From: Asterochloris sp. CNOR1
Taxonomy: Eukaryota; Chlorophyta; Trebouxiophyceae; Trebouxiales; Trebouxiaceae
Length of the DNA stretch: 64,000 nucleotides
Direction of reading: 5' to 3'
Assembly: GCA_963969365.1 (NCBI GenBank)
Contig: OZ017760.1
Span: 2,108,001-2,172,000, forward strand
Shown here one piece after another: positions 1 to 64,000 of this stretch; within the stretch, counting starts at the first letter, position 1, and each line of letters starts with the position of its first letter. The notes under the pieces are model-generated. The model made no database searches, had not been told where the DNA came from, and was given only the letters and a program-made list of their open reading frames with translations. Position numbers and translations under genes: made by a program.

Positions 1-1932
1 GGGTGCACGTCAAGGAGACCACCGAGATTGGTGAGTCTCTGGGCCTTCTCAACAAGCAGTCCCATGGACTGTGCCCCCTGGGCTCCTTCTGACTGTGCAA
101 TCCGAGCAGGCCAGCCCGTTGCCTGGCCTGCCATGGTCAGCACTGGCAAAAGCATTGGCGAGCATGCTCACGTGCAACATGGAACTGCTTGGGGGGGTTA
201 GGATGGCAGCAAGCCCAGAGTGAGCTCTTTCTCACATGGCATCAAGCTAGTAGGCTAGCCCTTTCCCCTTGTAAGCGCCCCACATCCAGCCGAGCTGTTG
301 TGTTTCACCGAGCCTGGCTTCAAGCAGCCCTGATCATTGCAATTCTATCAGCCATGACAATTGGAAGCCAGGACTAGGCGTTCTCCCTGGGCACCTGGTG
401 GTACCGGCTACAGCTGGCTGTCCCCCTGGCAATCTGCCTGAGCCGTTGAGGCTGCTCTCAGCTCCCTGACTGCCCCTCCTCCATTTTCTCCAGGCGAGGG
501 CAAGATGTTCTCCCCAGGAAACTTGAGGGCAACCTTTGACAACCCTGAGTATGAGAAGCTGATCAGCTACTGGATCGGGGAGAAGTACACCCTGCGCTAC
601 ACTGGCGGCATGGTGCCCGATGTGTTCCAGGTAAGCTAACATCGCACATCAAGCAAGTATGGAACACAACCCTGTCAGGGCTTGAGGTGTGCTGGTGGAA
701 AGCACCCAGCCTGCAAAAGTCTGTGGCAGCAGATTACTGGACAGTCAGAGAAGCCTCTGCTGTGAGCTGGTTGCAGGGTTGGCATCTGGTGGCAGCAGCA
801 CCAGAGCCATCATGGCTTTATGCTGCGTAGTCAAGAGGTGAACCCTATACACAGGTGGCTGCCATGTGTCTGTCAGGTTGGCAGTGACTGTGGTGTTTGG
901 TGGAGCTGGCTTTGAGCTACATCTCCACAGGACTGGGGGCGCAGCGCAAGGGTTTCTGGAGGTAGTCTGTATGGCAGGGAGCTGGTAGCTTGCTGTTCCA
1001 CAGGCTCTGCCAGAGGAAAGCTGGAATGCCTTCGCTTGGGCAGCTGAGGGTAGTCCTGCCTGCAAGAGCTCCTATTGCAGCAGATGCCGCAAGATGACAC
1101 TTGGTGCTGTTCACCGGTGAGCAACCAGCTGTTTCAAGCCTCCCCGGCAGCTAGTTGTCAGGGAGAAGAATGTATTCAGCGCTGCATCCCAGCTGCATGC
1201 CATGGCTTAAGGCAGCTCATCTCTGCTGCTGTGACTGCAGATCATTGTCAAGGAGAAGGGCGTGTTCAGCAACGTGACCTCCCCATCCACCAAGGCCAAG
1301 CTCCGCATCCTCTTCGAGGTTGCTCCTCTTGGCCTCCTGGTAGAGAAGGCCGGCGGGGCCTCCAGCTGCGACGGGCAGCAGAAGTCTACCCTGGACGTCC
1401 TCATCACCAAGCACGACCAGGTGAGCAAACGCGCTGGCATGCGTCTTTTAACCTGGCGAGCAGCAACTCCTGGGCATGCCACCAGCTGCAATGGGCAGCT
1501 GAAGTCCACCCTAGATGTCCTCATTGCCAAGCACATCCAGAGTAATACTGCAGTAGATGTGCACGCTGCGTGCCTCTGGCAGCTCTGCTTCTTGCCAGCA
1601 GAGCACCAAGTGGCTTGAGCTGCTTTGTATTCTCCCAGCAGCCACTGTTGTTGAGAGTCTCCAGTCTGTTGTGGTAAAGCTGCATCTGCGTGGCCAGGCC
1701 TCCCCTGCTGTGCTGTGCAGGCCGCTGCATTTGCACAGCATCTGGGCGCAGGTGTGCTGGTGCAGATTCAATTGCCACTGCAACAATCTTTATGCATTTG
1801 TCCTGAACAAATTGCCCTTCCTGCCTGCAGAGAACACAGGTGTGCTATGGCAGCGTAGGTGAGGTCAAGCGCTTTGAGGAATTCATGTACGGCAAGTCTG
1901 AGCGCTTCTCCGACTCCAAGGTGGCAGCATAA
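1..1932 (+). CDS. SBP: Sedoheptulose-1,7-bisphosphatase, 3' part (5' end outside window)
   Basis: Removes the C1 phosphate of sedoheptulose-1,7-bisphosphate in the regeneration phase of the Calvin cycle, in the chloroplast stroma. Exons are 1-30, 494-630, 1241-1420 and 1831-1932; all junctions keep phase and have GT-AG ends, giving the last 148 residues. The family C-terminus is clear: [13 protein letters not shown], then [14 protein letters not shown] (substrate-binding tyrosines), then [19 protein letters not shown], then RTQVCYGS and a GEVKRFEE tail. The [16 protein letters not shown] form and the RFEE tail separate SBPase from fructose-1,6-bisphosphatase. The N-terminal redox cysteines lie outside the window. 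Insertion of CDGQQK in the AGGASS loop is slightly longer than in land plants. A decayed copy of exon 3 sits in the last intron. Confidence 0.93.
1480..1540 (+). repeat. Exon ghost: decayed copy of SBPase exon 3 end
   Basis: About 61 bases inside the last SBPase intron match positions 1360-1420 (end of exon 3) with roughly 11 differences. The reading frame is intact ([11 protein letters not shown] against [11 protein letters not shown]), but no GT donor follows the copy and no clear acceptor precedes it, so it should not be spliced in. Several differences are CG to CA or TG changes. Confidence 0.85.
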
Positions 1933-2079
1933 GAGTCCCCTTGAGAGGCCACAGTCTCAAGCGCCTGAGTACGAGAGGTTTTCCTGCACCCCATCCTTAT
2001 CTGAGGAGTGATGATTATTCTGAAGACACCCAACCTCTCACATTCATCCACTGCTATTCATTTCTTGAGAAGACACAGT

Positions 2080-2084
2080 TGTAA
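2080..2084 (+). promoter_or_regulatory. Candidate TGTAA poly(A) signal of SBPase
   Basis: TGTAA is the usual polyadenylation signal of green algae; this one lies about 150 bases after the SBPase stop codon and before the convergent gene ends at 2192. Position fits, but the motif is short and unproven here. Confidence 0.4.
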
Positions 2085-2191
2085 GGGCATTTATTCAGGG
2101 TCTGAAGTACAGCTAGGGGTCAATGAACATGCGTCACGTGCCATGTGCAAATAACAAGCTTGCGGGAGGTCATGCCTCCTACATTATGTGC

Positions 2192-2730: not shown

Positions 2731-2802
2731 CTGCACAGTAGGCAGGCAGCAGTTGAGTTATCAGGGTGAATGATAGCAGTGTGAGGCACAAAGTTTGTTG
2801 GC

Positions 2803-3372
2803 GTGCTGATTGCTGCCCAGTGCAGCGTCCACTTTGCAGCCTTCGAGTCTCCTTTATAGAATGGGCTCTGTCAGGACATTTGATCTTGAACAGTTTGGCG
2901 AAGCCATGTCAGGCACTGTCTGGCCCTCCTGCACAGGTTGTTGATCAGGAGGTGGCAATGTGTGGATGGCACCTGCAATAGTGCTGTGCAGCGTACAAGC
3001 TCTTGTCTTGCATGAGCGGATTTCAGTTGGGTGGTAGCAACGTCGGGCACATATTTGTTACCATGCTCATGGCTGGCGGGTGCAGCGTCCATTCCACCTG
3101 CATACAGGAGGCTGGTCAGGAGGTGGCGGTATGTGAAGATTGTTGCTACCCTGTGCAGTGTCTACCCCTCCTGCAAACCAGCCAGGCAGCATCTGTGTGC
3201 TGATAGCAGGTGCACTGGGCGTCTTGCTTGCATGGCTTGAGCGATACGATGTCGCCCCATCCTGCACGTGAGCTAGGCCAAATTTCAGTGGCAACCAGAA
3301 AAACATGACTTGCTGGCGTGCTGTATGGTAACCTGTGCAGGGACCACCCTCCTGCAGTCAGGCTAGGCAGCC
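2803..3372 (-). repeat. Exon ghosts: repeated copies of the acceptor edge of the 2192-2730 exon
   Basis: The exon edge at 2697-2753 recurs in decayed form at 2803-2840, 3079-3115, 3139-3190 and 3310-3372. Each copy keeps the core of the acceptor and exon start (plus-strand pattern tgcagcgtcyac...cctgca...ggcaggcagc). All are in the same orientation as the exon, with spacing from about 60 to 270 bases. This accounts for most of the otherwise empty 1.1 kb between this gene and the start of the next at 3871. Confidence 0.75.
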
Positions 3373-3870: not shown

Positions 3871-6800
3871 ATGCAATCGTGGCAGGCTTTGATGGTGATT
3901 GTGGCATGCATCAATGTGTCCTTTGCGGGGCAGCCTCCCAAGGTTCATGTTGCCCACCTTTGAGCAAAAGGGGCACCATGGAAGACAAGTGTGTGACAGT
4001 GAGGACTGGCGCAAGACCAGTCTAAAGCTGATCAAGGAGGTCCAATTTGCTGGCCTATTTGAGGATCTGCAGGGTGATGATGCTGCTTGCTATACTGATC
4101 ACAAGTTCCCGCTGTCTTTGCAATGTGTATCACACTTGCGCGGTGCCTGCCAGGGGAGACCAAGTTTGAGGCCTCAGGCATGGCCTTTGTCAACAACACC
4201 TACCATATTGTTTTTGACAGGTGGGACTAGGCCTGCAATCCAGCAGGCATAGTCACAGCATGCTCATGCAGGCTGCACTCGTGCATCAGGCAGGCCTACT
4301 GCTGTTCCTGATTTCTTGAGGACCGATAGTATGTGCATCCTGCAAAGCAGGTGGCAGCACAGCTCATGATCTCACAGAACAGCCATGACAGCACCGCCTA
4401 CATTTTCTACAGACGGCCCCATCACAGCCGGCACAGCAAACACAGAGCCTTGTACAGACTGCCTTCAACTGACCTGCAGCCGCCGCAGGCGCTATTCATG
4501 ACCAGTCAAGCTTTGATGCACACAATCCCTCAACCTGACATAGGCTCCCTTGCAGCCACCGCATCCTGAAAAGAGTGGAGATGCAACGAATGCTGCTGTT
4601 GATGCAAAGCAATGCATTACTGCAAAAATGCTGCACCTCACAGTAGCTGCTCTAGTACCGTCAGCCACAGCAGGCTGAACAGAACAAAGCTGCTGTCTCT
4701 AAGTGGTAGGCCATCACTGCACAAGCTTGCACCTTGCAGAAACCTCCCTACTGCCCTGCAGCCATCACAGCCTTGGCAGGATTGGGGCAAAGCTGGAGCT
4801 GCTGTCCCCCAGCAACACCTTCATCGGCGCAAAGGGCGGCGACAGCCAGTTTGAGGGGATCGCATACAAGCCCAAGACTGGGACCTTCCTGGTGGTCAAG
4901 GAGTCGCATGAGCATGGAGGTGGGTGTTGTGGCTCTGCAGGCTCCTGCTTGCACACATGGTGGCCACAGCCAATGTGAGAGCTGATGCAAAGTTTGCTTG
5001 AGCAAGAAAGTGAGTGAAGCTGGCTGTTGCATGTGGCTCTGCAGAGCCTGTGGGCAGTCAGTGTCACGGACAATCAGCTTGAGGACAGGACAGGCAAGTC
5101 GAACAGGTTGTCCGTTCCTGGTGGTCAAGGCCTAGCATGAGCATGCAGGCAGGTTCCCAAAGACGCACTCCTTGATCTGTTGGCGCCTAAACTATAGGCC
5201 TCAAGCCCCCAGTGAGATCTGCAGTTTGCCTCAACTAGCACAATTTGCCTTCATGAGCTGCGCATGGTATGGTTGACTGAATCACAGGCAGATGCTTGGA
5301 GACGCCCTGTTTGAGTGCTATTAGCTACACGTTGGGCTGCAGCCCCATCATCTGCCTTAGGCAGTGAGCAAGATGTGAGTGCCTGCGTCGCTGGCCCTGC
5401 TGCTGTCTGTAGCTGCAGTCCAGAATCTTGGCCTGACCCTCCCCCGTGAGGGTGACGGGCTGCACACCAGGTGGTGCATACATGGTCATGCAGGCCAATG
5501 GCACTCTGAAGGTCATGCTGGCAAGGTCCAGCACAGTGACCAAGCAGTGTGGCGCTGGCCTGCAATTTTGCAATGGTCCTCCTGAGGCAGACCAGGTCTC
5601 AGCCTTTGATGCCTCCCTTGCAGCTGCTGGCTTGGGCAGGTGTGCTGCCCTGCCAGCTCGGTGCCCTTTTAAGAGATGCTGGTAGCAGCAGCTGGGCCAC
5701 CACCAGCGCAGTCAACCTGACTGCTCCCTCAGAGTGGACGCAGCTGGGCCTCCTGAGGACCTGCAACTTGGTTGGCCTTACTCAAAGCTGCTATTGATGG
5801 CAGCTGGGCCACCTAAAGCACCTGCGATCTGGCTGCTTGCTCACATGTGCTGTTGGTGCAGCTGGGTCACATTAACTTGGCTGTCTTTGCTTGAGCAGCT
5901 GCTGGCGGCAGCTGGGCTGGTCTGGCCTGAGGCCTGCTGTTCCACCGGGAGCTGCTGCCAGCCATTTTTGCCCCTGCCAGGGACGCCTTCACCTCTCTGC
6001 AAGCACAGTGAACACTCTGTGAGCAGACTCGACAGAGAGGATGCCCCTCACAGAGAGTGTGCCTGCCAAAGGATGTGCGCCCCTCAGCAAGCACCACCTT
6101 AGCATGTTGCAGCACCACAGCGCCCAACTTTTCAGCAGGCTCAACCCAGCCCCACCCTAGAGGAGCTGCGCCTGCTAACAGAGGATGGCGCCCGCCACGT
6201 GCACCCCTGAGCAGGCAATCTGAGCATGTGGCAGTCACCCTGCGCCCGTGATTGGACCCCACTTCCTTGCAGGCGAGATCAGGCCCCTCAATGGGGATCG
6301 GCACCTGCTGCCCAGTCTCATGCCAGCATGCTCCCTTGCGTGCAGGGGACTGTGTTGACTAGTCAGACTGCACACTTGGAGGCTGCTGCCAGTCGCAAGC
6401 CTCCTCTTGGTTGCTTGCAGCAGCCAGAGCTCTCAAGGATCTGATAACTCAGTCCTGCACCCCCGTCGAGCGGGTTCCACTGAACGCTCCTTCATGCCTT
6501 GCCTACAGGCGCCATCAAGCCCCTCATTGAGGAGTTGCGCTTGCTGCCAGAGGACGGCAGCTATGAGGTTGTGCAGCAGTGTGTCATGGACTTTGACCTG
6601 TCTCACGAGAACAAGGGCATCGAGGGCATGCAGTACGTGGACGCCGGCGACAGCGGTGAGCCGGGTTTTGCCCTGTAATTTGAGCTCAAGTGACATCTGC
6701 TGCACTGACACTGGATATGGGGTTTTCTGATGTGCACATTGCTGGTCCAGCACTTGACTTTGTCCAAGCAGCCAGGCGTTGAGAGATGACCAGGCTGTGG

Positions 6801-8564: not shown

Positions 8565-11500
8565 TTAGAAGAAGTCACACAGCAGGATGCGTTCACGCTG
8601 GACATGCTCGATGCCCAGACGGCGGGACAGACTGGACAGCTGCTGCGCCGGCAGCCCCGCCAGGAACACGCTCAGCTCCTGCGGGCGCCGATCTGCGCTG
8701 CAGAAGGCTGCGAGCCCCCTGGGCCCCCCAAACAGCGCTGCCTCCAAGTCGTCCTGCAGGGAGTCCTGCCCCGGGGCAGCGCCATTTCTGGAGAACCCCT
8801 GGCGCACCCGCGCCCCAATGTAGATCGGTGTCACCGTGATCTGCAGCATGCATGAAAGTGTGCGGTGCCATTAGAAACTGGAGAAGTCTCATGACACGTG
8901 TCATGATGATCTGCAGCAACAGATTGCGAGTACTTGTAGTTCCTGCGATGTCGGCAGCAGCGAAACTCTGGCTTGAGGGCTTCCAGGCAACAATGACCTG
9001 CAGCGGCAGAGGAGACAAATCCTGAAGCGGCAGGTCATGCACAGGCTGCAAAAAGTTTTAATTCTACAAGCATTCGCTTTATTTGGTGGTCAGGACGGCA
9101 GGGATATGTATGTTTTAGCAAGATGAGCGCCGCAGCCTGGGGAAACAGCAGGGGGCTTGGTGCAGTAGCCCCTGGTAGCAGACAGGGAGGCTATTGCTCC
9201 GCACAAGGATTAGTTCTGCAGCCTGTCGCAGTGATTGCTGCCGTCCTTGCAGCAGGGCAGAGTAGTACATGTTTGCAGGCATGATAGCGCTACGCCAAAT
9301 TTCTTGGGGTTTCTGGTGGCTCTTCTGAGGCCAAATACAAACACATGCAGCAGGGACTTGCACAGGCTACCTGGCTCTGTTCCTTGCCTGCAAGTTGCAA
9401 TGATTGTGTCCAGGACAGATTGCCCAGCGGCAATGCAAGGTGGCAGTCCCTTGAAGCCCCTCATACAGGCGCCTTCTGGCTCTGAGCAGCATGTGATCAA
9501 TGTGCTCCACATGTCACGTGGACACGCTGCCCCAGGAAAGGCAACTCAGTGCTCCTCCAGCGGCTGCTGCGCCATGATGCAGGATCTGCACCTCATGCAT
9601 CAGGCGTGGAGCTGCAGTCAAAATCACTCACCCCAGCCTCTCGCAGCTCGTCCCACTCTGTCACATAGGCTGCCCCCTCCTGGCTTTCAGCAACATACAC
9701 CAGCGACACACGGTTGGCTGTGGCCTGAGCCTGCACCGGTGTCCACTGCGCCAGCGCTCGCAGAGGAGCAATTCCCTGCAGGTAGGGCGGACCCATGGTC
9801 AGCAAGCCAGGTGACAGCATCGTGCATGGCATGGCTGCTTTGCAGGCAAGAGCAATGCTGAGGCCTGCTGAGTGTTGGCGGCTTGCAGCACCAGGCACAG
9901 AAAGCGTTGTTGGTGGGCGCGGCAACGTGGCTGCAGAGCAGCTAAGGCTCATCAGTCACAACCATACAAGCTGGACTGGAGTCATGCTGGCTGAAGAGAG
10001 CGCCTGCCGCTGGCTGCGTGGACCCCTTGGTCAGAGAGTCACTTGCAAATGGAAATGCGGTTACAGACTGATGCCTGCCTTCCACGCAGGCAGATGACAT
10101 GTGGACGGAAAGGTCAGACAATGTGTTGTTTCAGCTGTAGCACTCAACAGCACAGCTGTAGAAAGGAAAACGCATCTTGTACTGCTCCAGGCAAAGCTCA
10201 ACACACAGCATAGTAACAGATGCCACCCAGATGCAGCTGGATGCGCCAAGAATGCTGGGGGCCCCCATGAGCATTTTCACACTGCCCCACGAATAGGCAG
10301 GCAGCTTGCAGCATTTACAGGCAGCAATGGACCACGCGCAGCAAGCGCAGTTGGATGCCTCAAATGAGACAAGCTTACCTGCGAGCCCCAGGCCACCATG
10401 AGCATGTCACGTTGCTCCTCCAATGCGGACAGCAGCCCCACATAAGAGTTGAACAGCGATGCAAAACTGCAGCAGGGGGCACTGTGAGGCATCTCCATGT
10501 CAAGAGTTCAGGGTTGACGTGTACATGCTGCTGGGGCAAGCCAGCAGAGCCACAGGATCTGGTTGCCAGGTCCTGCTGCACTGCAACTTGAGGAACAACA
10601 GAATGAAGAATGTGGTGGAGTACGAAAGACATGCATCATGGCTTCAAGTGAGGCGGTTGGCTGATGCCAAGAAGTGCATCAGATCCAGCCAGCTGCAAGC
10701 AGAGTGCAACATGCAACTTGTGCCCCCAGACCACAATCAGGGCTGCTGCTTTGCACTTGGCCCACAACTCAGCTGGTGATTTACATATAGAAATTTGCAG
10801 ACAGCACCTGGCTGATGGCCAGGGGTGCTTTCCGTTGCAGCTGTTCCAAATACAATCTGCATGTACACCAAGCAGGTTCACATCCTGCTCTCCCTCTTTC
10901 CAGCACCTGCTGGAGTCACCTGGCCCCAGATGTGCCCGGGTACAGTTCAGACCAGGCACACAATGCTCACCCGCGACCCAGCACCTGGCTGATGGCCAGG
11001 GGTGCCCCTGGCCCCAGCTGGGCCAAGTGCGCCTCGCTCTCCTCCCCATCAGCTGCGACTAGCAGCTCCAGGATGGTGGCATCCAGGTCAGCACTCTGCC
11101 GTCTGCAGAGAGGTTAAAATATGTGGTCGCTCATCAGCTGCTGCCAGCAGTGCCAGCATAATGGCATCCAGGTGGAGTCCTTGGGCATTCCATTGCAAGC
11201 GGCAATCTGGACCCATAGCCACCACTCACCGTGCGTCATAGGGGCTGCTGGAGATGGCAAACAGGCGGGGGGCACGGCAGTCTGGCTCTGTCCCCTTGGG
11301 CTGGCTGCAATACTTAACTGCCACCATCTGCAGATGCATCACCACTTGGCTTTCAGTACTTCAAGGCTGGGCACACAATCAGAAGCAATTGCAATGCAGG
11401 GGGCAGTGCTTCGAGTGCTGCAAAGTACCCCTTGCGGACAGTTGCTGGCATGGTGCGACTAAGGTGTGCATAAGGCAGCTGTTTGAGTGCAGCAAGGCCG

Positions 11501-25984: not shown

Positions 25985-26142
25985 GTGGCAGGCTGTTGCC
26001 CCACGGCACTTTTGCTCACTGTTTCATATACCTAATATCAGGTACATGAAACAGTGAGCAAAGGTGCCATGGGGGCGTGAGCCTGCCACATCAAGTACAT
26101 GAAACAGTGAGCAAAAGTGCCGTGGGGGCGTGAGCCTGCCAC
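25985..26142. repeat. Inverted plus direct repeat, ~50-bp unit
   Basis: A left arm at 25985-26033 is the reverse complement of 26040-26089, with a spacer of six bases, so it can form a long hairpin. The right arm is then repeated directly at 26093-26142 with three to four differences. Core: gaaacagtgagcaaa. The source locus near 8440 has only a single, weaker copy in the forward orientation. Confidence 0.85.
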
Positions 26143-26576
26143 AGATATCATGATCATGTTACTTTGGCGCTGTATGTGCTTGCCATCATTCCCTGGCATG
26201 CGCCTGTCATTCTGCGCAGGATGCAGCCGCATGCAGCTCTTCTCATCCAAAAGGCATTGCACCCGTGCTGCAGAGCCGTTTTGGCCAGGGAGAGCCCTCG
26301 TGACAGCAGAGGCAAAACTGAAGACAGGAGCCCTGGCACAAACATGGAGATGACTTGAGCAGGGGACTGCCAGGTGTGGCCTGCCCTGCCCCACATGTGC
26401 TGCCTGGGGCCCCTTCCCTCCCGTCGAGAGTCTGCTGTTGTGGGCGCTCATGGGGTTTTAGGACACTATCACTGCGCAAATCCCGCCATGACTCCATTGG
26501 GGAAGGTTGTCAGCAGAATCACAGAGCATGCGCCACAGCAAGCAGCAGACATGACCTCAAATCAAGAATTGGAGGC

Positions 26577-50800: not shown

Positions 50801-53800
50801 CTAGTTGAGCGCCAGGTGGGGTCCCAAGGCACTGACAAGGGCTGGTGCCGTTGCGTGAGCACAACTGAAATATGCCTCTAGGCACTTGTGAGACAAATGG
50901 CCCATGTTGGGTATTGAGCATCATCTACCTGCCAGCCTAGGGTGATGACAATAAGAGACCTGCATGAGTCTGGACCTGGGGTTTTGGAGTGACCCTGTAG
51001 TGTGCCAGGGGAGCTTTGTATTCTGAAAGAGCAGATGTGGAAGTCTCTGCAGCCTCCTGCAGCGAGGCGAGATGCTCAAGTATGCCTCCCCCATCAAGCA
51101 ACGCTGTCAGGGTGTTGCGCGCTGATCCTCAGCATGACAGTGCACGTCTTCTGTGCATGCAGGTTAGATGCGTCGCGGTGATGATGTATGGGCTGGCGCT
51201 GATTCAGCCCCACATCGTCCTGTGCGGCATTTGGCGGGCCAGCCTTATTACTTACACCCTTTGTGCTTGCAGGGAGGTTGCGTGGTGGTCGTGATGCATG
51301 GCCTGGTGACGATCGAGCCCCTCATTGCCCAGGGCTGCCGCGCCCTCAGCGAGGAGAGCGTCTGGCTGGTGCAGGGCTGCTCAGGCAACATCATCTCTGC
51401 GGTGAGCAGCCCTCATGAGTGGCACTGGCTCAGCCTGGCAGCTGGCAGGGCCTCATACTCAGGGACCACACCTGGCTGGGGCAGGGGTGCTCAGGCAGCA
51501 TTCAATGTGCGGTGAGCAGCCCACACGAGAGGCTCTAGCACATCATATCAGCTGGAAGGGCTGCATGCTTAGGGACAGCACCTGGCTGGGGCAGGGGCCC
51601 TCATGCGACCCCACATCTCTGTGAGCAGCTTTGATGAGCGGGCAGCACCTGGAGTGGGCAGTCCCCCCAGCACAGTGACAAGTGGGATCAACTGGGCAAG
51701 CTGCAGACTCCTATGCAGCTCAGCTTGGCAGAAGATGTTCTGCAACCCTGCAGGCCTCATACTGCACTGGCCCCTCTGCGTGGCGCTGCCGGCTGTAGCC
51801 TACCAGCGCTGACTCTGTCCAGCCGCCCTGATTCTGCAGGCAGGCAATGGAGCAGGGTCACCCCCCTGCCATTACTGCATGCTGCTGCACAGCCTGCCTT
51901 TCTCCCTGCAGTCTGAGCGCTAGCGTTGCGGGCAAGACTCCCTTGCAGGGCGCTTCCTCCTGATCTGACGCCGTGCCAGTCCCATGCATTTGAGCGCTCC
52001 AGACATGCGCGGTAGTACAAGCCACCTGCCAGGTGCTGCATGCTGGACGCTGCCCTCCACCTGTTGCAGGTGAGCCTCTTGACAGGGCAGACGAAACAGA
52101 GCGAGGCAACTCCTCTGTGGCCCCAAAAGACACCAAGGATGTTGACCAGATCAGCCCTTTTGTCACTGTGCAGGTGAGCGCTCCGGACGGGCAAGGGAGG
52201 ATGACGCCCCTCAGGGCGCTGCATGCAGACCTGCTGGCTCTCAGCCAGGAAGAGCGGGAGCAGGCAGGCAACAATCTGGTGGTGGCGACAGCGCCCGATG
52301 ACCTACTGCGCGCTGGCGCCCAGCCAGAGGACAGCTGGATGATTCGTATGCTGGTGCGCTGGGGTGTGCAGTCTCAAGAGGCCTGCTTCGCCCCCTGCTC
52401 GGCTCAGCTGGGTGACTGCTCGGGGCCCAGCTCGCATCTTCAGCAACCAGAGGAGTCTGCCCGGGCAGGTTCTGGCACCACTCAGCGCCATCTCCCTCAT
52501 GTGGTGCTGCAGCTTTGCACCATGTCTCCTTCACCACGCTATGTGACATTTGCTTCTTTACAAGTTCTTGGGCACATCAGCAGCTGGCAGAGCCCATCTC
52601 AGCACCATCTCCTGCTACCAGTTGCAGCAAACCTCTTGGTACAGGCGCATGTAAGGCAGAGGGGCTGGAGCGTGAAGCGCATTCACCGCAGATCTTGTGT
52701 CATGCCAGATCGTTTGTTGTAAGCATCTCTCCAAGCCCATTGGTGGTACAGCACTGGCTTAGACTTTGCTCTCCTTTTGACTCTGCTGCCCTGCCTGCAG
52801 ATGGGCATCGACCCCAACACTGGCTGCGTTGCTGTGGGAGATACTGTTCACCTCGGACAGCGCATCAGATTCATGGTGAGCCCTGCCTTCCTCAGCAGGA
52901 AAGGCTGTCTGTTCCCTGCACCAACTGCCTCTGTCAGGTGTGTGGCCCCACTTGCCCTGAGCGCGAGCGGGACAACTGGTGAGGTGCTAGGCTGCCAAGC
53001 CTCATTGTGCTGCACAATTGTGTACCCGCGGCTGTGATCATCTGCATCGCTTGTCAGCAGTGTTGTCTACCTCTCCTCAGCACTGAATGTCTGTGAGCGG
53101 TGCCTTCAGCAGGGCCGCCTGCTCTGGTGGGCCACGGCCTTCTGTGCATCAAGCGCTATGCCTGCAGCTCTGTTTGCTCATGCACTGCTTGGCCAGCAGT
53201 TGGGGACAGGGTTCAAGATCCATGGATCTTCGCATCCCCAACAGGACTGGCAGCACCTGTCTGGAATGCTTCACCTCTCTTCAGGTCAGGACCTCATGCC
53301 CTGTTGTGGTACGCCATCCCTCTCTGTGCGTTCTTCGAGCTGTGGGGTCGCAGCTGGAATTGCTCGCCATGCAGTGCTGTCCTGGGGATGTGCACGGTGT
53401 TGAGTCGAATCTGCAAGTCGCGCCCCTCTGTTGTGCGCAAATGCTGGTTGCCCTAAGTGCCTGCTGGGGCTCGGGTGTTCAGACCTTCATATCCCCCATG
53501 CACGCCTCCCACACCTCCCAGGCAGGTGCACAATGCCCTGGGCAACAGGCAGGACCCACCACAGCAGACATCATGTGCTCAGGGTCCCTGCCGGCCGCCT
53601 GTTGCTGGCTGTCGGACGCCCCAGGTGCCCGCCAGGGCTCAGAACTGCAGACATCCTTGTGCACAGAGACCCTGCCTGCTGGCTGGTGCAGGGAGGAGCT
53701 CAAGACGTTTGCCAGGCCCTTGGCAAGGAGCGCATGCGATGCGTCCGGCCCTGGCCCTCAACCAACCCCACTCTGCCCCCGCCTGCAGGTGCGTGACGCC

Positions 53801-55340: not shown

Positions 55341-55413
55341 TGCCCTCATACAGAGTCGAACTGTAGACCTTGACCTTACTAAAGTCACGCTCTACCAACT
55401 GAGCTATAAGGGC
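55341..55413 (-). tRNA. trnT-AGU: tRNA-Thr, anticodon AGU
   Basis: A 73-base cloverleaf without intron. Acceptor GCCCTTA pairs with TGAGGGC (one G-T pair), D-stem GCTC/GAGC around AGTTGGTA, anticodon stem TGACT/GGTCA with loop TTAGTAA (anticodon AGT), and T-stem TACAG/CTGTA with loop TTCGACT. The discriminator base is A and CCA is not encoded, as expected for a nuclear tRNA. A-box (TAGCTCAGTTGG) and B-box (AGTTCGACTCT) promoter elements are intact. Confidence 0.95.
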
Positions 55414-55864
55414 GCCCTTCTTCGATGTATGTATACGTGTTTCAGATGTACCAATTCAAGACTGTCAAGGACATAGCTTTAGCAGGTCGTCAGCAGTGAA
55501 AATCTAGAGGTGGCCTTGGCGCTGTCAAGAACAAAGCAGGCCCTTGCAACAGAATCATGAGAAGCCTTGCCGAATCCAGGCACCTGCCTATCCCATGCCC
55601 CATGCTGGCTTAATGAAGGACCCTAGAGACTGGCATGCAAGCAAAGGCCTGCGGCGCAGCCACCACTGAGGGAGCGGCATCACTAAACACTTGCTGAGAT
55701 GGCAGGCACCACAGCATAATGGGTGCAAGGAAGCCTTCATCGTGTTGAGGGCTCCAGACTAGAGGGGGTTGGGAGAGCACCCTGGGTCCTGGGACAGGGG
55801 CGATGGCCAGAGCAACACCTCCCCGGCTTTCCCGTCCGTCTAAAGCAAAAGTCTAAAGCAAAAC
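55414..55864. other. Spacer between tRNA-Thr and 5S rRNA
   Basis: No gene or repeat is visible. The reading frames present are short and unlike the coding exons elsewhere in the window. Confidence 0.55.
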
Positions 55865-55980
55865 GCTACAGCACCAGATATTCCCGCGTGGTCACCCAAC
55901 GTAGTACTGATCTGGCCCAATCCAGTTTGCCTTCCGTGATCGGACGAGAACGGGGTTATTCTGGATGGTATGACCGTAGC
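55865..55980 (-). rRNA. rrn5: 5S ribosomal RNA, single copy
   Basis: About 116-119 bases on the minus strand. The ends pair (GCTACGG with CTGTAGC). Family blocks are present: GGTCATACCA, CGTTCTCGTCCGATCACGGA, GATCAGTACTACGTTGGGTG, GACCACGCGGGAATATC and TGGTGCTGTAGC; a TTTT terminator follows directly. It resembles nuclear 5S and not plastid 5S. The AATAACCCC segment departs from the usual GCGCCCGAT-type loop, so it might be a divergent variant. One copy is seen, so 5S genes may be dispersed in this genome. Confidence 0.88.
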
Positions 55981-55982
55981 AT

Positions 55983-56306
55983 GCCACACCTGTAAATGTA
56001 CAGATAATATGCCTATGTAGAGAGAGGCTCTGTAGAGGCTCGCGTTACGTATCGCAGCTGTGGGGGTGCAGGCAACTTGGGTGGGTGCCATGTCTGGCAT
56101 TTCACCTGGCCCAATCTGATATGAGTCGAGCTGCACCATGAACAGGCATTGCACCTGGCCCAATCTGATATGAGTCGAGCTGCATCATGAACAGGCAAAC
56201 AAGCTCCAGGCTTCCTCTTCAACTGCCTAGACAGCAACTGTGTAGTGTACGTGCAATGCTCACAATGCGTCCATTTGTAACTTAGCCACATAAGCAGGTC
56301 ACAGGT
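55983..56306. other. Intergenic with a 49-bp tandem repeat
   Basis: 56103-56151 and 56152-56197 are nearly identical copies of cacctggcccaatctgatat followed by gagtcgagctgca; only two bases differ. The repeat lies between the 5S gene and the end of the CCDC96 gene. Nothing else is visible. Confidence 0.75.
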
Positions 56307-59300
56307 TCAGGGGTACGTAGTAGTGGGCACAGCAAAGTTGCGTGGTGCAGTGCGTGGGGTGAGGTTCAGGTGCTCAGAGTGGAAGGCCTCAGCGATGGCC
56401 TCAGCCATATGTTCTTCGCTTCCTTTCACCTCTTTCATGGCTTCCAGAGCTGTTAGCCCATGGCGGGAGTGAGGAGTTGCTCCCCTGCTGGCTCCCCGCC
56501 GGCTGCCTGGCCGCGACACTGCGCTGGCCTTGGAGGGGTGCTGCACGGCGGCTGTGGCTTGCCCAACCTGCGGCACATACCGTGCCCTGCTTGGTGTGGC
56601 CCTGGCCTGCTGAAGCAGGCCCTGGTGCAGCAGAACGGCATCGATGCACGGCTGTGGCAACGCGGCAAGGACGATGTGCAGGCTGCCAGCAGCTGCTCCC
56701 TTCGTCCCTCAAGCAAGCCCACCTGGGTGCGCAGTGACCCTGACAGCTCCAGGAGTCGCGAGGTCAGCTCGGCCGTACGGCCTGTGGTTGCGCTGTGGGC
56801 CCTCTGCAGCTGTGCCAGGTCCTCCCGTAGGTCAGCCCTCCTGCTCTTCTGGATCTGCACGGCGTGTGCTGGCACATCGGAATGATGTGCGCTGGTGCAG
56901 GCCTGCATCTGCCCCTCCGTGAGCCCTCCTGCTCTTGTATATCTGTGCGGCACATCCTGGCCCATCCAAACTGATATGCACTGGTGCAAGCCTGCATGAG
57001 CAGGGCTCTCCCGCAGATACACCCGTCTGCTCTTGCTGTATCTGTGCATGATTGTGCTTGCGTGTGCGGATGGCTTGCAGCTGCACAAGAGTCTCGGAAG
57101 ACTAGCCTTGACATGGCAGTCCTTCTGCATCTGGAACATGCCTCAGCACAGGGTGGTCTTGATTCATGGGTGCACATATGCAGCTCACCGCCACCCCTCC
57201 TCCGACAGCAGGGGGAAAAAAGAGAGAAAAGTTCAGGCCTGCTTGAGCTTAACTGCAGCAGCCTCGCAGCGGCCATCCTATGCCTTGACATGTGCAGACT
57301 TGACAATATAATGGCGGTGTGCAGACACAGGCGTCCCTGACCCCCACGTCCCCTGGCAGCACAGGGCTGTTCAGCATGGGAGAGGCCTCCCACAGCCCTG
57401 CAGCAGCCACCTGGTGGCGGCTGCGTGATACCTTGTCAGCAATGCCCTGTTCAATGCTGAGCGCAGTCTGCAGACACTGGTTCACCTGGACCCCACATTG
57501 GCGATGGCAAGCAGCAAATGCTGTCGAGCATTGAAGCGAAAGGCCGCAGCCCTGCAGACAGCCGCTCTCAGGCGGTCAAGCTGTGCCTGACTGCAGTGCA
57601 ACCCTGCTAAATGCAAGGAGCACTCTGTCGGCACAGGCCCCCCTCACCTCCACATCCCCCAGCAGCGCAGGGGTGTTGAGGGTGGAGGACGCCTCCCTCA
57701 GCCCTGCCGCAGCTGCCTTGAGGCGCTCGCGCTGCGCCTTGATGCGCGTGAGCTGCTCACGGCGATTGCCCATTGAGCGCTCCACCTCCTCCAGCTCAGC
57801 CTGGAAGGCAAGTAGCAGTGTTTGCTCTGCTGGCATGGGGGTGACTTCCAAACCTGTGCGGCAGCACAGATGTTGACCTGTGTCACCAGAGTGCAGGAAA
57901 TGGTGGCCAAGGCAGAGCACCTCCAGGGACTCACTCTGCAGGCAGAGGCAACACAGACAGGTCTGCCAAGACTGGGCAGACAAAAGAGCTGACCTGAAGG
58001 GCCTCATTCTCCTTCTCGACGTGCTGTAGCTTTTCCTTGACATGGGTCAGCACCTGTAGCAAAGGAGATCTGCCTCAGCATCATCTAGCAGTAAATGGCA
58101 TTGCTATGCAAGCCACAAAAGCATTCAGACTACGCAGCGTGGCAGCTGCTTTGCAGAAGACATTGCCATAGATGCATGGAAGCAGCAAAGGCTACATCCT
58201 CTTGAAAGGCACTGCAGTCAGCTTCCCCCAACAGCGGCAGCATTGCTGCCAGTTCATTCAATACTGCAGGTCGTCCTCTTGCAAAGCATTGCCCCACTGA
58301 AGCCACGCCTGCCAACTGCCTGCACACTAAAGTCTACTTTCTGGACCAAGAGGCAAGCACCATTACCATCACACCTACCTGCACAGTGGAGGTGGTCTTT
58401 TTGCGCAACTTGAGAAGCTCCTCATTGCGCTCCTCAATCTTCTCGTTCAGACTCTGGTTCTCGATTTTGAGCTGCTCAAAGTCAATGAGGTGTAGCCCAG
58501 CTGCCAGCTCCTCCTGCAAAATCACACAGACTCAAATTGAGGTCAAACTGCATCAGGGAGCATGCTGCTGCATGAGTGTCATGCCTTGCGATGCCTCAAC
58601 ACAGGCCTTGGATAAGCACCTGCCCCTGAAAAAGCCTGAGCGTGTCAGCACAAGATAGGACGTGCAGGAAGGCATTAGGTGGGCCAGATGCAGCAGGGGA
58701 ATCCCTGACAGGCAGCTGCAACTGAGCACTGGCAGCAGGGGCATCCCTGCACAGGCAGCTGCAACTGAGCACTGGCAGCACGAGCCCACCTTCTGCTTCA
58801 GCGTGGCCTCCAGCTTCTGCTGCTGGTGGGTCAGCGAAAGGTGCCTGAGGCGAACTGCTGCGATGCGTGCATCTGCTGCCACCTCCTGCTCGGCGTAGCT
58901 GTTCAGCACCTGCAGGGGAGCAGCATGCAGCTTCAGGGCAGCTGCTGGCACAGCACGGCTTGCAGATGGCACCACGCTCTGTGAAAGTCTCTCCAGCTTT
59001 GCCCACCAGTTCCCATATGCCCCTGCCCTGCTTGCCCTGCAGAGGTTAGGCAAGCTGTCAAGGCCAGCTTTACTGAGCCTGAGGTGCAGACTGACGCGCA
59101 TCTGTGCAAGGAGCTCCTGCCGTGCACAGCGGCTCAGCACCTGCAGGAATAGACACTGCCAGGGCAGCTTCAGTCAGCTAGTTTGCAGACTGCTGTCTGT
59201 GGCAAGACCTCCTGCTGGACACGTTGCTTTTGCACCTTTTCAAGCAGGGGAGAGCAGCCAGATGTAGACTTCAAAGACGCTTCAATTGATACAGTCACAA

Positions 59301-62300
59301 CAAACAATCTGGGTAGGCCTCATCATCTGGAGTCTCAGTGCAAAGCTATTGCAATGGTGAAGAGAGCCCTGCGGCAGTCTTGCCGTTTCATTGCACAAAA
59401 GCTGGCAGAATTGTTTCTTCTGTGCATGGTACCTTGAACCTTCTAAACCAGATAGTCACTGACAGTGTCAAATGCAAAACCCCAGGGAGGCACAAGGGCA
59501 CTGTGGCCAGTGGCGCTGCCCACCTCATTGAGTGCATTGCCCTGTAACTTTACTCGCATAGTGGCCGGTGGCGCTGCCCACCTAATGTGAGTGCATTGCC
59601 CCGCAAAGCGAGGCATCCCTGTGCCATGCTCTCTTGCGCTGCGCACCTTGGCAGGGATGTTCCTTCCATTCTTGGTGTTCTCAGAGCCACGAGCAACCTC
59701 AGTCAAGAAGTGGCGGAATGTCTTCCGCGTCTCCTCACTGCGGTTCAGGCGCTCCTCCAGAGTGGCCTGCAGGGAGTCCCTTTAAATCAGAAGGTGCGTG
59801 CTGGCAGTCTAGACCTTGCTTTGCTTCCAAATCCAAGACCTTTACAGACCATGCATTGAGCCAGCTCCTGCTGCACCATGTGTAGATTGACATGCAAGCC
59901 AAATGCAGCACACAACTCCAGCACTGACCAGCGATTATTAGCTTGGAACTGCCAAAAGTGTGTGCTAGCCCTCATCCCACAACACTCTTTTACAGTCTCT
60001 TGGTCTACGCCTTAACATGCAGCTCCACCCATGCCAACCCTCCTCAGCTGCCTCTGCCCAGCAGGCTACATGACCTACTGGCTAAGCCTGTCATTGAGTA
60101 GCTGCACCACCAGCTGGTAGGTGAAGACACAGAATGCTGCTTCTCTGTGGAGCCAAACACCTCTGATCACTGGCTGCATGCATGAAGCCAGCAGGAAAGA
60201 CAGCCACATGAACACCCAGCCTCACAAGCAACCCCTGCAACTTAGCCTGCTGTGACAGGCTGTGACTGCCTAGTGTCTGGGGTCACCCAGGGTCTACCTT
60301 GAGCCCAGCAATTGGTACAGCTAGCTGCGAACATCAAGCCCACCATAGCAGGCAACCCAAAGAACCGACCTGCAGAGTCAGGGTTTGCGAATCGAAGTGA
60401 GCCTCCACTCTCGCCAACTCCTCTGCCGCTTCTGCCCAGCTGATCACTGCAGCATTGTGACGTTCCTCCAGCCCCCCTCGCGCGACTGCCAGCGCTGGGT
60501 CCAGCCCAGCAGCGGGGCGCGCTGCTGTCCTCCCCTTTGCGCGCGCCTCCAGCACCTGCAAGGGTGGCATTGGTTGGTGACTAAGGCTCAGCAGCAGTTC
60601 CTCCCTTTTGGTCGCGCCTCCAGCACCTGCAACAGCAGCACTGGTTAAGACGCAGCAGCAGTTGCTCCCCTTTGCGCGCGCCTCCAGCACCTGCATGGGT
60701 GGCATCGTTTTGTGAGTAAGGCTCAGCAGCAGGTCAGAGGTGGGGTCTGACTAAGAGCTGCAAGCGGTAACTAGCTGTGTTGCCTACTACCTGCAAGGGT
60801 GGCAGGCACAGGCTTGAGGTTGGCTCTGGGGCGAAAATTGTGAAATTCTGCAGGACAATGCACACACGAGCTCTACGGCATTGCTGCCCTGTCTTGACAT
60901 CTGCCACCAGGACCTGTTTGGGAAAGGTAAGTCACACATGGCAAAGAGTGCTGCAGGGTGGGCAGCATGTGGCACCTGCAGTTCCCTGAGAGGGGCCATG
61001 TCCACTTCTTTGTCCACAAATGCAGCTAGGGCAGAGGCAGCCTGAGAGGGGTACATGGTCCCAAGGCAGTCATGCCACTGGCTTTCCCAACCCTCTGCCA
61101 ACATCACCATGCAGACAGCCCCTTTGATGCCTGCCAGTTTGTCCTGATGGACCTGCGATGCAATGCTGCAGGCTTGCAGCTTCCTCGCCCATCACTCTCA
61201 CAGAAGGTTGTCAGGGGCACATGGTGGTGCATTGCCAGCCAGTCCCCAAGCTGGAATGAGGGATACTGCGCTGCAGCGTGTACCCAGCTGGCTTTCTGCC
61301 ACTGCCTGCACCCACCCAAGGTGCTACACTGCAGAGCCCTGCTGACCTGGCACACATGCTGACCTGGCACACATGCCCTGCTGACCTGGCACATATGCTG
61401 CTGTAGGGTGGCATTCCCCTCTGCTCAATTCGCACTGCCACCCTGTCCTTCAGCTGGCCTAAGCCTCTGTGCAGGCCGCTCAAGCCATTGCACAGCTGTC
61501 ACACTGGCAGTGCTGATAGCAAGCTGCTGTAGCGAGCTGTTTCCTACATGAGCCCTGCTGTCAAACAAACCAGCCCACCCAGCACACAGGCCTTGCACTT
61601 GTGCAGCACAGCACAGCACGCCCACCTGGCGCACGCGCTGCTGCAGGGTGGCGTTCTCCTCCGCCAGGCTGCGGTGCTGCTCCTCGCTCTCCTGCAGGGC
61701 CTCCTGCAGCCGCAGCTCCAGCTCATCCACATCCACCTCTGACTCCAGATCCCGACCTGCGATGCCAGGTGTGACTGGTTTGGGGGGTTTGCAATGTGTT
61801 AGGATAGGGCTGGGCATGGCTTGCACAAGGCCTGTCTTGCAGCATCAGACATCTGAGGGCCTACATAGTTTCGGTTGGCTATCAGCATGTCAGCAGGGCC
61901 GAAAGGCTCGTAATTGCGGCTTGGCATGGGTTTCACCACCATGGGCCGCCTTCGGAGGCAGCCTCCCAACTCATGGCTGGCACAGCTTTGGTGCCCTGGC
62001 GGCAGGCTGTGATCCTGGTGGATGGGTTGGCTGCGGCTCCACATCTCGGCAGGTGGGCCTCCTACCTGTGACACTGGATGCATCAGCTGTCGTGGCTGAC
62101 GTGGGGCGAAAGTCGTCACTGAAGCCGTCAATCTGTGCTGCAATCTCGCGGGAGGTTGGGCGGGACCCTGGGGTGGACACCTCGCGCGAGAGCTGCCTGC
62201 TAACGGGGGTGGGCATCCTTGCCTGCACCAGAAGGTCACGCAAGGGAGTGAGCTCAGGGGCTGTGCGTGAGGACTTGAGGGACAGTGGCAATGCGCCTGG

Positions 62301-63659
62301 GGCCGCATTGCTGCGCGCATCTGCTGACACTAGGCCGCGCTTGAACCTGCAGCAGGGGCGGAGGTCATGAGAGCGGGCTGGGGATGCTGTTGCTGCCTGT
62401 GCATACAAGCTTGGTCTTGAGTTTGCGGTTGCTGCCTCTGCAAAGCCATCTGCACGGGCAGCCTGTACGATGCCTTTCGACATACTATGATTCATCCGCC
62501 ATGCAACGGGAGAGCAGCTCTTGTTGGGCGTCACCCTGCAGTGTAGTTGTGGCCTGCTTTTAGTGGGTACTAAAGTGCTGCCTGCACTGATAGCCAGGCT
62601 GAGTGTCAGCGTCAGGGGAAATTGTGTGAAACCACTGCTGCCAGCCAGTCAACAGAAAAGGGCTGACAAAGCAGCTGCCACCGCGACTCCGAGCGCATTG
62701 CAGCAGGCAAGCAGAGCTTGCCTCTGAGCAGGACAAAGTGCTGCACAGGCTGCAGGTGGACCACAGCCGTCTGCTGCCAAGCAGGGCGCACCTGCAGCCC
62801 ACTGCCCACCTCCTGTGCCCTTGGAGTATCCCATGCCAGCCAAGCGGAGTAGCATGCTCGGCTGAATGGCAGTCCATTCAGCACAGAAATAGCCCCATGA
62901 CTATCAACTGCCAGGGCAAAATATACTTAGCCCTTGGCGCACCTGCTGTACCCCTGAGCCCACCATGCCAAGCCGTACATGGCTTTGAGCACAACAGGCT
63001 GCTGCTCTGCTTGCAGAGGTCAGAGCTGACGTCCAGCTTGTTCCAGGCAGCCACTGCCGGACAGGTCCAAGGCACAGTCCGCAGCCCACCTGTTGTGCGG
63101 CCCCCTCGCCCGCCAAGCAGAAGGCCACACTCGGCTGCTTGGCAACCTGGGCCACTGCTGTCTCATCCGCTGCAGACCCCTCGGGTGCCCCTTGCGCAGC
63201 AGCTGCATCTGGCTGCATGGCTGCAGGCTCCTCAGCAACTGGCTCCAAGCCCCCTGCGGGCCCAACAGGGACCTGATTTCCCGGCACAGCCTCAGCTGAG
63301 GGCCCCAACTCGCTCGCTGCCGCTGCTGGCACATCGGGGCTGGCAGCACCATCCGCTGTCACTGCAGCGCTCTCCTCTGGCGCGGCCGCAGCCGCATCCC
63401 CTGCTGCTGCAATGTCTGCAGGCAGGGGGCACAACAACAGTGGAGCTGATTGTGCCAGATGCAGGCATAGTCTCATCAGCGAAGCTATGCAGGGCCGGGG
63501 ACCCCTAACTTCACCTGCAGCATCTGCCTGCGTCTCCTCCATCGGCCCCTCAGCAGGTGGGGCTGGAGAGGCTTCGGAAGACATACTGTGTGCTTCTTCC
63601 ACCGGGCGCTCAGCATTTGAAGCTGCCACATCAGATGGTGCTGCAGCCTCTTCCGCCAT
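56307..63659 (-). CDS. CFAP184: Cilia- and flagella-associated coiled-coil protein, CCDC96/CFAP184 family
   Basis: Exons in coding order: 63659-63515, 63415-63090, (one unresolved), 62346-62066, 61756-61626, 61041-60976, 60555-60370, 59766-59647, 58909-58790, 58513-58379, 58053-57994, 57800-57648, 56854-56723, 56651-56307. All joins match in phase except around the unresolved one. About 730 residues. The N-terminus is acidic and Ala/Glu-rich (MAEEAAAPSD), as in CCDC96. The hallmark C-terminal block is plain: LHLIDFEQLKIENQSLNEKI, EERNEELLKLRKKTTSTVQ, VLTHVKEKLQHVEKENEALQ, then AELEEVERSMGNRREQL. CCDC96 and CCDC113 work together at the base of radial spoke 3 on axonemal doublets. The related CCDC113 shares this block, but the long acidic N-terminus favours CCDC96. 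A tail of about 115 residues after the coiled coil is unfamiliar. Confidence 0.85.
56915..57070 (-). repeat. Two ghosts of the 56723-56854 exon start
   Basis: The exon start and acceptor (plus strand ctcctgctcttctggatctg) recur at about 56928 (ctcctgctcttgtatatctg) and 57030 (gtctgctcttgctgtatctg), about 100 bases apart, with matching ggtgcaggcctgcat / ggtgcaagcctgcat between them. Confidence 0.85.
57325..57425 (-). repeat. Ghost of the 57648-57800 exon end
   Basis: About 95 bases copy the exon end and donor region, encoding AAAGLWEASPMLNSPVLPGD against AAAGLREASSTLNTPALLGD. It keeps a continuous frame and a gtgg at the donor position. It lies about 230 bases downstream in coding direction. 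Confidence 0.88.
59079..59142 (-). repeat. Ghost of the 58790-58909 exon start
   Basis: Upstream copy with acceptor: gtgctgagccgctgtgcacg against gtgctgaacagctacgccga; encodes VLSRCARQELLAQMRV against VLNSYAEQEVAADARI. It might be skipped or used as a cassette exon. Confidence 0.78.
60592..60810 (-). repeat. Serial ghosts of the 60370-60555 exon start
   Basis: Plus-strand pattern ctcccctttgcgcgcgcctc followed by cagcacctgca recurs at about 60600 and 60665, each followed by ggctcagcagcag-like intron sequence; a shorter, older one lies near 60790. The 60665 copy is identical to the exon over about 30 bases. Confidence 0.88.
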
Positions 63660-63753
63660 GATGTGGTGTGACTTCTGCACCTGCCCAAAGTCATCGTACC
63701 TGACTTTGCCTAAAATCACCTCGTGACCCACATCGCCCTTTCGGAAAGAGATG
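63660..63753. promoter_or_regulatory. Short divergent promoter region
   Basis: Only 94 bases separate the start codons of the CCDC96-family gene and the gene starting at 63754. No TATA box is evident. Shared control is inference and depends on both start codons being right. Confidence 0.4.
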
Positions 63754-64000
63754 ATGCAAACCCAGCAGGTCAAGCTCAACAAGCCGCTGAACTTTTCTTC
63801 AAGGACGTCCAGACTCAGACCTCACTCATCGGTGCCTGCGACGCAGATGAAGCTGCAGATTACCAAGTGAGTCACCGGTTGCTGGCATCATCGACATCGG
63901 GGCGTTGCACTCATACATGCACACTGTGCACACAGGCACCTACTCAGCACACGTCTGGCTCTACTCCATGCATCCTCGCAGCACCTGGTTCTCGTCAGCA
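63754..64000 (+). CDS. First exon of an unidentified gene, cut by the window end
   Basis: An ATG at 63754 (another at 63751) opens 37 codons that end at a good donor (accaa|gtgagt) at 63866. The peptide (MQTQQVKLNKPLNFSSRTSR, then a Ser/Thr/Arg-rich stretch) has no acidic residues and looks like a plastid or mitochondrial targeting peptide. Bases 63867-64000 are intron. The product cannot be named. It is divergent from the CCDC96 gene. Confidence 0.45.

Follow-up and report, generated by a model that had tools for sequence, protein, structure and literature searches.

About one quarter of the introns tested here (57 of 213) hold a decayed, same-strand copy of the edge of a neighbouring exon. 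These copies, which we call ghosts, are probably the products of local same-strand duplication that is blind to reading phase, filtered afterwards by selection and decaying near-neutrally where they lie in introns. The sample covers 264 kb, made up of the 64-kb window (the whole stretch of DNA presented above) and ten further blocks, each of 20 kb, from this genome.

Local same-strand copies of exon edges

Gene models were made ab initio, and those for SBPase, MTA nucleosidase and PABP were checked against solved or database homologues, not against RNA; the MTA nucleosidase has only 64% identity to two Trebouxia proteins. An early gene finder without penalties called too many short exons, and its models were replaced. 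Two reliable flanking exons are present for 221 of the 439 modelled introns, of which 213 were long enough for the exon-edge test and 193 entered the spliced-junction test. The GC content of the stretches of genome examined is 56–59%, nearer to the 56–62% reported for Asterochloris glomerata than to the 49.68% of a Trebouxia genome, and the Trebouxia affinity assumed in the sequence-only reading is probably wrong.

Each exon edge was compared with its own intron at a score of at least 70, using a low-complexity filter and leaving out the consensus ends of the introns. Copies were found for 60 of 426 edges, compared with 3 on the reverse strand, 2.3 in introns of other genes (mean of three draws) and none in shuffled introns. 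Under three other gene-model settings the edges with a copy numbered 43 of 364, 72 of 452 and 73 of 442, against 2, 5 and 5 on the reverse strand and 1, 3 and 4 in random slices. The sequence-only reading of the window had described the copies as local and on the same strand, and this is borne out, as neither equality of the two strands nor equality with random introns was seen across the 264 kb. Its statement that all stages of decay are present also holds, with identities from 100% down to approximately 68%. Copies had further been claimed for at least nine of ten window genes; the strict test finds them in seven of our ten window gene models, and the figure of nine is reached only when unrestricted exon–intron pairs are added.

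Local pairs were also counted, with inverted pairs and a distant control spacing as controls. At a score of at least 100, the filtered pairs in the 264 kb number 152 on the same strand, 8 inverted and 0 at the control spacing, and the window alone contains 44 direct pairs at 20–599 bp, 2 inverted and 0 distant. The excess is not peculiar to the window, since nine of the ten other blocks also show it clearly; block B06 has almost none (5 direct, 1 distant and 1 inverted at scores of at least 70; 1, 0 and 1, respectively, at 100). An artefact of chance similarity, CAG-rich low complexity, the common CTGCAG consensus or faulty gene models is most improbable and is excluded by the controls as the main cause: the unfiltered pair search did contain (CAG)n pairs, TGCAG stands at the acceptors of 187 of 221 introns and the gene models were built by an ab initio script, yet the edge test was filtered and omitted the consensus ends, the inverted, distant and other-gene controls are close to zero, the result is stable across the three further settings, and the homologue-checked genes also carry copies.

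Geometry and examples

Donor-side ghosts (31) and acceptor-side ghosts (29) are about equally frequent, which removes the suggested preference for the acceptor; pairs spanning a junction number 19 at acceptors and 13 at donors. Nor is a fixed step of about 50–115 bp confirmed, as the distances of the 60 ghosts from their sources range from 65 to 713 bp, with 24 between 100 and 148 bp, and those of all pairs peak at 80–130 bp. The 178 chained pairs comprise 72 intron–intron, 75 exon–intron and 21 exon–exon pairs and 10 outside modelled genes, and the exon–intron pairs have a median chained length of 45 bp and a median distance of 156 bp. Of all intron bases, 9.7% lie in detectable local copies at a score of 70 (control 0.3%) and 14.0% at 60 (control 2.3%); a detectable share of about 10% does not show that most intron sequence comes from duplication. 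DNA outside the modelled genes is less covered than introns (3.8% versus 9.7% at a score of 70), and has 8 pairs at a score of 100, where rotation leads one to expect 14.9.

In the window, the SBPase gene (+ strand), whose frame is supported by its alignment to the solved chain 7b2o_A, has an exon 3' edge at 1358–1420 that runs up to the donor. Its ghost lies in the following intron at 1478–1540 (83% identity), stops at the equivalent of the junction and has AG in place of the donor GT; the source exon is present once in the homologous protein. A weak second ghost, at 1147–1180 (76% over 34 bp, score 82), precedes the acceptor and exon edge of 1237–1270 by 90 bp. Also on the plus strand, the exon stretch 4886–4925 has an intronic copy at 5115–5154 (85%), the stretch 6498–6548 has one at 6262–6312 (75%), and an acceptor-side ghost at 22327–22359 matches 22434–22466 (82%). 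Both kinds occur in one modelled intron, with a donor-side ghost at 30377–30437 of 30199–30259 (69%) and an acceptor-side ghost at 30699–30757 of 30805–30863 (80%). In a gene with a PHD-like zinc-finger match, a donor-spanning exon edge at 37298–37388 is copied at 37515–37605 (80%). Arrays are found as well: the unit of a 106-bp tandem array at 33430–33773 (2.4 copies, 91%) consists of a CTGCAG acceptor and an exon start, and a FIST-domain gene has acceptor and exon-edge copies stepped by 110 bp at 51152–51228 and 51262–51338, with a 110-bp array at 51362–51629. The same process away from junctions is seen in a 54-bp tandem duplication (15764–15872, 93%) that lies entirely within a modelled intron.

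On the minus strand, an exon edge at 2685–2758 has intronic copies at 2792–2833, 3062–3102 and 3140–3198 (chained pairs, 76–81%), and edges at 11047–11088 and 11823–11878 are copied at 11132–11173 (81%) and 12020–12075 (71%), respectively. An exon–intron pair joins 58883–58916 and 59114–59147 (79%), and a 71-bp array of about three copies crosses an exon edge at 60528–60735. A glutamine-rich, coiled-coil-like gene has an acceptor-spanning copy (46299–46502, 83%), called an exon by the first gene model and possibly a true second exon. The Pfam search covered five of the eight first-pass window proteins. In the blocks, a B02 protein has an AMP-binding match in Pfam and is without a match to a solved structure at E ≤ 1e-20, and a B04 protein, queried with the first 743 of its approximately 1476 residues, gave no family.

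Origin of the copies

In the explanation that we favour, stretches of approximately 20–200 bp would be duplicated locally in the same orientation, in tandem or near-tandem, in and around genes, probably through end-joining repair of staggered breaks or replication slippage. Duplication would ignore the reading frame and selection would filter the products afterwards. Within exons mainly in-frame duplications would persist, and a duplication spanning a junction would leave one functional junction and one intronic copy that, being untranslated, would decay at close to the neutral rate; the ghost would necessarily adjoin the exon edge, and introns would grow through such events.

Pair distances modulo 3 fit phase-blind birth with a filter in exons, as exon–exon pairs are distributed 13/3/5 (n = 21), exon–intron pairs 23/27/25 (n = 75) and intron–intron pairs 21/24/27 (n = 72). 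Mismatches by codon position over the 60 ghosts (0.176/0.176/0.250) follow the pattern expected of a ghost that drifts everywhere and an exon whose changes fall mainly at third positions. Exon–intron pairs exceed rotation 1.3–1.8-fold. Such pairs stay recognizable for longer than intron–intron pairs because selection holds the exon half, and in simulation this longer visibility alone yields an excess of 1.2–1.5-fold (242 versus 178, 173 versus 148 and 127 versus 85 detected, of 420 each), so that a process targeted to junctions is unnecessary for most of the excess. Among young full-tandem pairs (identity at least 0.9), six of ten overlap by just 1–4 bp past the unit. In PABP, two of the four ghosts adjoin exons that align without gaps to the solved homologue, the other two lying outside the compared stretch. 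Of the earlier proposal, local duplication that takes in splice junctions and makes introns longer is supported, and the copies fit ordinary recurrent local DNA duplication rather than a novel intron-making route.

Two other sources of the copies were considered and rejected. Copies of spliced exon–exon junctions with both sides scoring at least 35 occur in none of 193 introns (one at 30 or above; controls 0), which points to a DNA rather than an mRNA template. In a profile of 46 pairs selected by their exon side, exon-side identity declines from 0.80 to 0.34 over the 60 bp next to the junction; as partial edges prevail, the ghosts are not classed as full-exon duplications.

Plain tandem duplication is nevertheless challenged by the drop in similarity at the splice junction, which is sharper than simulations predict, the simulations having been made to judge the intron-side figure of this profile with parameters (unit sizes, indel ratio and rates) that were our own choices. 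The junction test used 24 of the 60 ghosts, all of them reaching the junction, and their intron-side identity of 0.32 ± 0.04 (background 0.25) lies below the prediction for neutral decay: 21 of the 24 belong to identity classes in which equal-rate simulations give 0.39–0.61, and the other three, at 0.42, to a class simulated at 0.73–0.81. For the 47 of 60 ghosts with an intron-side gapped score, 7 exceed 71, compared with approximately 14–20 expected from our sum over the simulated classes. Full tandem pairs account for 42 of the 178 chained pairs, with shares of 6 of 75 exon–intron and 26 of 72 intron–intron pairs; when full tandem duplications are left to decay in simulation, their share comes out higher in most classes, and most of all among young pairs, as 10 of the 25 youngest pairs are full tandem compared with a simulated share of 0.64–0.90. 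Young pairs are also scarcer than a constant birth rate would give. Pairs ending at a junction number 25 against 4.2 by rotation, roughly six-fold, which rules out random placement of short patches regardless of junctions, and simulated tandem duplication accounts only in part for the edge share (0.33 observed versus 0.13–0.22).

These data could mean that copying of exon edges is halted at the junction, or that retention as functional decoy edges, which would compete for splicing or act as spare sites, makes the copies decay about half as fast as the flanking intron; we consider this pair of readings unlikely. If it were true, exon boundaries would be tied to local copying or retention, a link undescribed in the literature examined. 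Strictly exon-limited copying, in which the copied stretch would stop at the junction from birth, its template or breakpoints being tied to exon boundaries, is likewise doubtful. The low intron-side identity and the excess of junction-ending pairs speak for it, as does the finding that none of the 26 pairs with identity of at least 0.82 crosses a junction by 20 bp or more. Against this, the pairs at B07 11031, B05 1227 and B04 5506 clearly run 20–50 bp into the intron, those at B04 5698 and B02 7156 do so with indels, as judged by eye, spliced junctions are not copied, and letting the flanking intron decay at twice the ghost rate reproduces the intron-side figure (0.32–0.33 in the two lower identity classes).

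A current or recent role for many ghosts as alternative exons or splice sites, weakly constrained and derived from tandem exon duplication with alternative splicing, is similarly improbable. In favour of this view, 673 ghost codons contain 5 stops where 10.4 ± 3.0 are expected (P = 0.035), the ratio of replacement to synonymous differences is 2.30 compared with 4.05 for a randomly mutated ghost, and the copies at 46444–46502 of the window and in B07 look coding. Ghosts may offer the spare splice sites suggested in the sequence-only reading: GT or AG is retained in 36 of the 51 junction-reaching ghosts, somewhat above the 0.54–0.57 of control dinucleotides, but the alignment favours retained cases. 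The third codon positions differ by just 25% and the flanking intron is near random, so a long coding history of the pairs is excluded; by our estimate, a drifting ghost combined with synonymous change in the source would also produce these replacement and synonymous counts, and ghost and source differ in amino acids in SBPase, an acyl-CoA synthetase-like gene and PABP. Judged from sequence, the stop deficit leaves room for a coding minority among the ghosts.

That introns arose here from tandemly duplicated exon sequence bearing AGGT, a route raised in the sequence-only reading, is highly unlikely: the mechanism is established elsewhere (PMC3443670) and tandem duplications and the AG|GT consensus both occur, but comparison of donor and acceptor regions at a shift equal to the intron length gives a mean identity of 0.253 outside the consensus, no higher than that of 14 neighbouring shifts, with none of the 221 introns reaching 0.45. 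It is thus unsupported for introns young enough to show the signature, ancient gains lying beyond the reach of the shift test.

Significance and relation to known systems

Should this density prove representative of the whole genome, about one intron in four would preserve legible traces of duplication at its own junctions, and the alga would be a good system for measuring intron growth and the tolerance of splicing to decoy copies of its sites. The unpenalised gene finder called spurious exons in both SBPase introns, each of which bears a ghost; similar errors are therefore possible in automatic annotation, which may miscall ghost-bearing introns in such genomes, a practical warning.

Within-gene duplications that create introns resemble those seen here in that both carry splice signals; here, however, the AGGT signature test gave no sign of intron creation in the 221 introns, and the copies lengthen introns that already exist. 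In mammalian cells, the repair of breaks whose overhangs are complementary yields small tandem duplications (PMC8355091), which share with ours the orientation, the size of tens of bp and a short overlap at the joint (six of ten young full-tandem pairs), although 136 of our 178 pairs are not full tandem. Introners, characterized in PMC9860276 as self-copying elements that enter many genes, likewise place repeated sequence within introns, whereas exon-edge copies, the only kind tested in this respect, are at background in introns of other genes (2.3 versus 60).

A close parallel is tandem exon duplication, for which unannotated or degenerate intronic exon copies are known (a 2002 study, as cited in PMC9013439; Exonize, PMC12343006). 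As in that system, same-strand exon copies, degenerate ones included, lie in introns of the same gene, similarity exceeds controls (60 versus 3 and 2.3 of 426 edges), and the copies, drifting at all codon positions, for the most part no longer code. Unlike in that system, most are partial edges, and they are dense: 1558 of 76,795 exonic bases (2.03%) are matched at 80% identity by a copy in an adjacent intron. Beside figures obtained by another method (PMC9013439), this looks high against the 0.08% for fly and 0.06% for worm and is close to the approximately 2% for human, where introns are much longer.

Exon-edge copies along the genome

The search covered 264 kb, comprising the window (G000:C15:2108001-2172000; GC 0.575) and ten 20-kb blocks taken from contigs 1-10 of the 56.4-Mb, 21-contig genome. 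Gene models came from our own splice-aware, self-trained and annotation-free ab initio gene finder, which arrived at a CAG/GTGAG-like donor and a CTGCAG/G acceptor, both seeded with a weaker general consensus. Among 221 reliable introns the acceptor consensus is very strong (TGCAG in 187, CTGCAG in 128), and GC donors were modelled in 16. Under the final setting the SBPase model is free of two spurious segments exposed by alignment to the solved chain 7b2o_A, and the PABP model can be matched along 371 residues to a solved poly(A)-binding protein (6r5k_D), interrupted by short gaps only. The best database relatives of the final MTA-nucleosidase model cover 97-100%, its best named protein matches being from Trebouxia (64% identity); its solved-structure alignment was made with the first-pass protein.

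Filtered pairs lying 20-599 bp apart number 152 on the same strand, 8 inverted and 0 in the distant control at a score of at least 100 across the 264 kb, and 378, 34 and 17, respectively, at a score of at least 70. The window and all but one of the ten added blocks show a clear same-strand excess; the exception, block B06, is nearly without it (5 direct, 1 inverted and 1 distant at a score of at least 70). Chained local pairs per block run from 2 in B06 (L012-L013, C6:500001-520000; 39 modelled introns) to 24 in block B02 (30 introns), which suggests that the process, or its visibility, differs along the genome.

The comparison of each exon edge with its own introns, proposed by the sequence-only reading, yielded a same-strand copy for 60 of 426 edges; the reverse strand gave 3, introns of other genes 2.3 and shuffled introns 0. 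Such copies occur in 57 of 213 introns, and three further gene-model settings agree. These decayed exon-edge copies, or ghosts, are therefore real, are found in nearly all sampled blocks and are strikingly dense. Their presence in at least nine of the ten window genes holds when unrestricted exon-intron pairs are counted (9/10), whereas the strict test gives 7 of 10 models.

Other parts of that reading fared less well. Ghosts thought to sit mostly at the acceptor are shared equally between the sides (31 donor, 29 acceptor), and in place of a constant step the distances spread widely and peak at 80-130 bp. With a score cut-off of 70, local copies, taken to be the main intron material, cover 9.7% of intron bases (control 0.3%), and with one of 60, 14.0% (control 2.3%). 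The signature of intron gain by tandem duplication was seen in 0 of 221 introns, and copies of the spliced junction scoring at least 35 on both sides in 0 of 193 (one at 30 or more); the reading's strongest step is not supported. Two young tandem duplications outside modelled genes, of 53 bp at 26037-26143 (94%) and 49 bp at 56096-56197 (96%), show that the process is not confined to introns.

Probable birth, filtering and decay of the copies

Copies are born blind to phase, the distances modulo 3 being 23/27/25 for exon-intron and 21/24/27 for intron-intron pairs, and within exons the survivors are mostly in frame (13/3/5). Ghost mismatch by codon position (0.176/0.176/0.250) fits free drift of the ghost together with an exon changing mainly at third positions. 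Exon-intron pairs are 1.3-1.8 fold above random placement; in simulation longer visibility alone yields a 1.2-1.5 fold excess, because selection holds one partner. A tandem duplication leaving an exon copy in an intron would have to cross the splice junction, and the ghost would therefore have to abut the exon edge. This required contact accounts in part for the marked clustering at edges (25 copies against 4.2 by rotation, the random-placement control; edge share 0.33 against 0.13-0.22 simulated). The molecular step is probably end-joining or slippage; breaks with overhangs are reported to give small tandem duplications in mammalian cells (PMC8355091). In the simplest reading, the ghosts are what remains visible of ordinary local duplication after selection has filtered the products.

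Several observations fit this account poorly. Similarity halts too abruptly at the junction: in 24 ghosts lying within 3 bp of it, identity over the next 12 intron bases past the consensus is 0.32 ± 0.04. For the two classes of lower identity, which hold 21 of these ghosts, simulation gives 0.39-0.61 at equal rates and 0.29-0.37 if the flanking intron evolves 2-3 times faster than the ghost; for the top class (3 ghosts), 0.42 was observed against 0.73-0.81 and 0.51-0.61, respectively. Similarity spans the whole shift (full tandem) in 6 of 75 exon-intron pairs versus 26 of 72 intron-intron pairs, and young pairs are too few for the steady process simulated. Pairs are also sparser outside modelled genes, where 3.8% of the DNA is covered against 9.7% in introns. 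Ghosts contain 5 stops where 10.4 ± 3.0 are expected, and 36 of 51 retain GT or AG at the junction. Either copying is exon-limited at birth, or ghosts decay at about half the rate of the surrounding intron; the abrupt junction edge is the part that merits following.

Candidate repeated exons and individual loci

Genuine second exons probably account for a minority of the ghosts, for example the pair at 46299-46502. Two arrays of acceptor plus exon start, in steps of ~106 bp at 33430-33773 and ~110 bp at 51152-51629 (a FIST-domain gene), are candidate real repeated short exons. Several ghosts are carried by each of two conserved genes, an AMP-binding (acyl-CoA synthetase-like) one in B02 (L004-L005) and the PABP gene of block B05 (L010-L011). 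The window also holds minus-strand genes for a tRNA (55341-55413) and 5S rRNA (55863-55981), spaced ~450 bp.

Comparison with known systems

Intronic exon copies, degenerate ones included, are already known: a 2002 study cited in PMC9013439 put tandem exons in ~10% of animal genes, and a tool applied to 20 genomes reports intronic and inter-boundary matches (PMC12343006). Among the open-licence papers listed by our searches, judged by title and opening abstract lines, no study dealt with copies of this kind in the nuclear introns of a trebouxiophycean alga. Genome descriptions give 56 Mb, GC 56-62% and 9 introns per gene in Asterochloris (PMC6652019) and 69 Mb with GC 49.68% in Trebouxia (PMC12712428); by its size, GC and protein matches the present genome is probably that of a trebouxialean closer to the former. 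Intron gain via tandem duplication, as reviewed in PMC3443670, does not match the pattern here. Exonic bases with an 80%-identity copy in an adjacent intron amount to 1558 of 76795 (2.03%; 41 of 492 exons), beside the 0.08% in fly, 0.06% in worm and ~2% in human that PMC9013439 gives for exonic sequence having an 80%-identical homolog, a comparison across differing methods that is a lead and not a measured excess. The algal density is reached despite short introns, with a median of 297 bp over all models.
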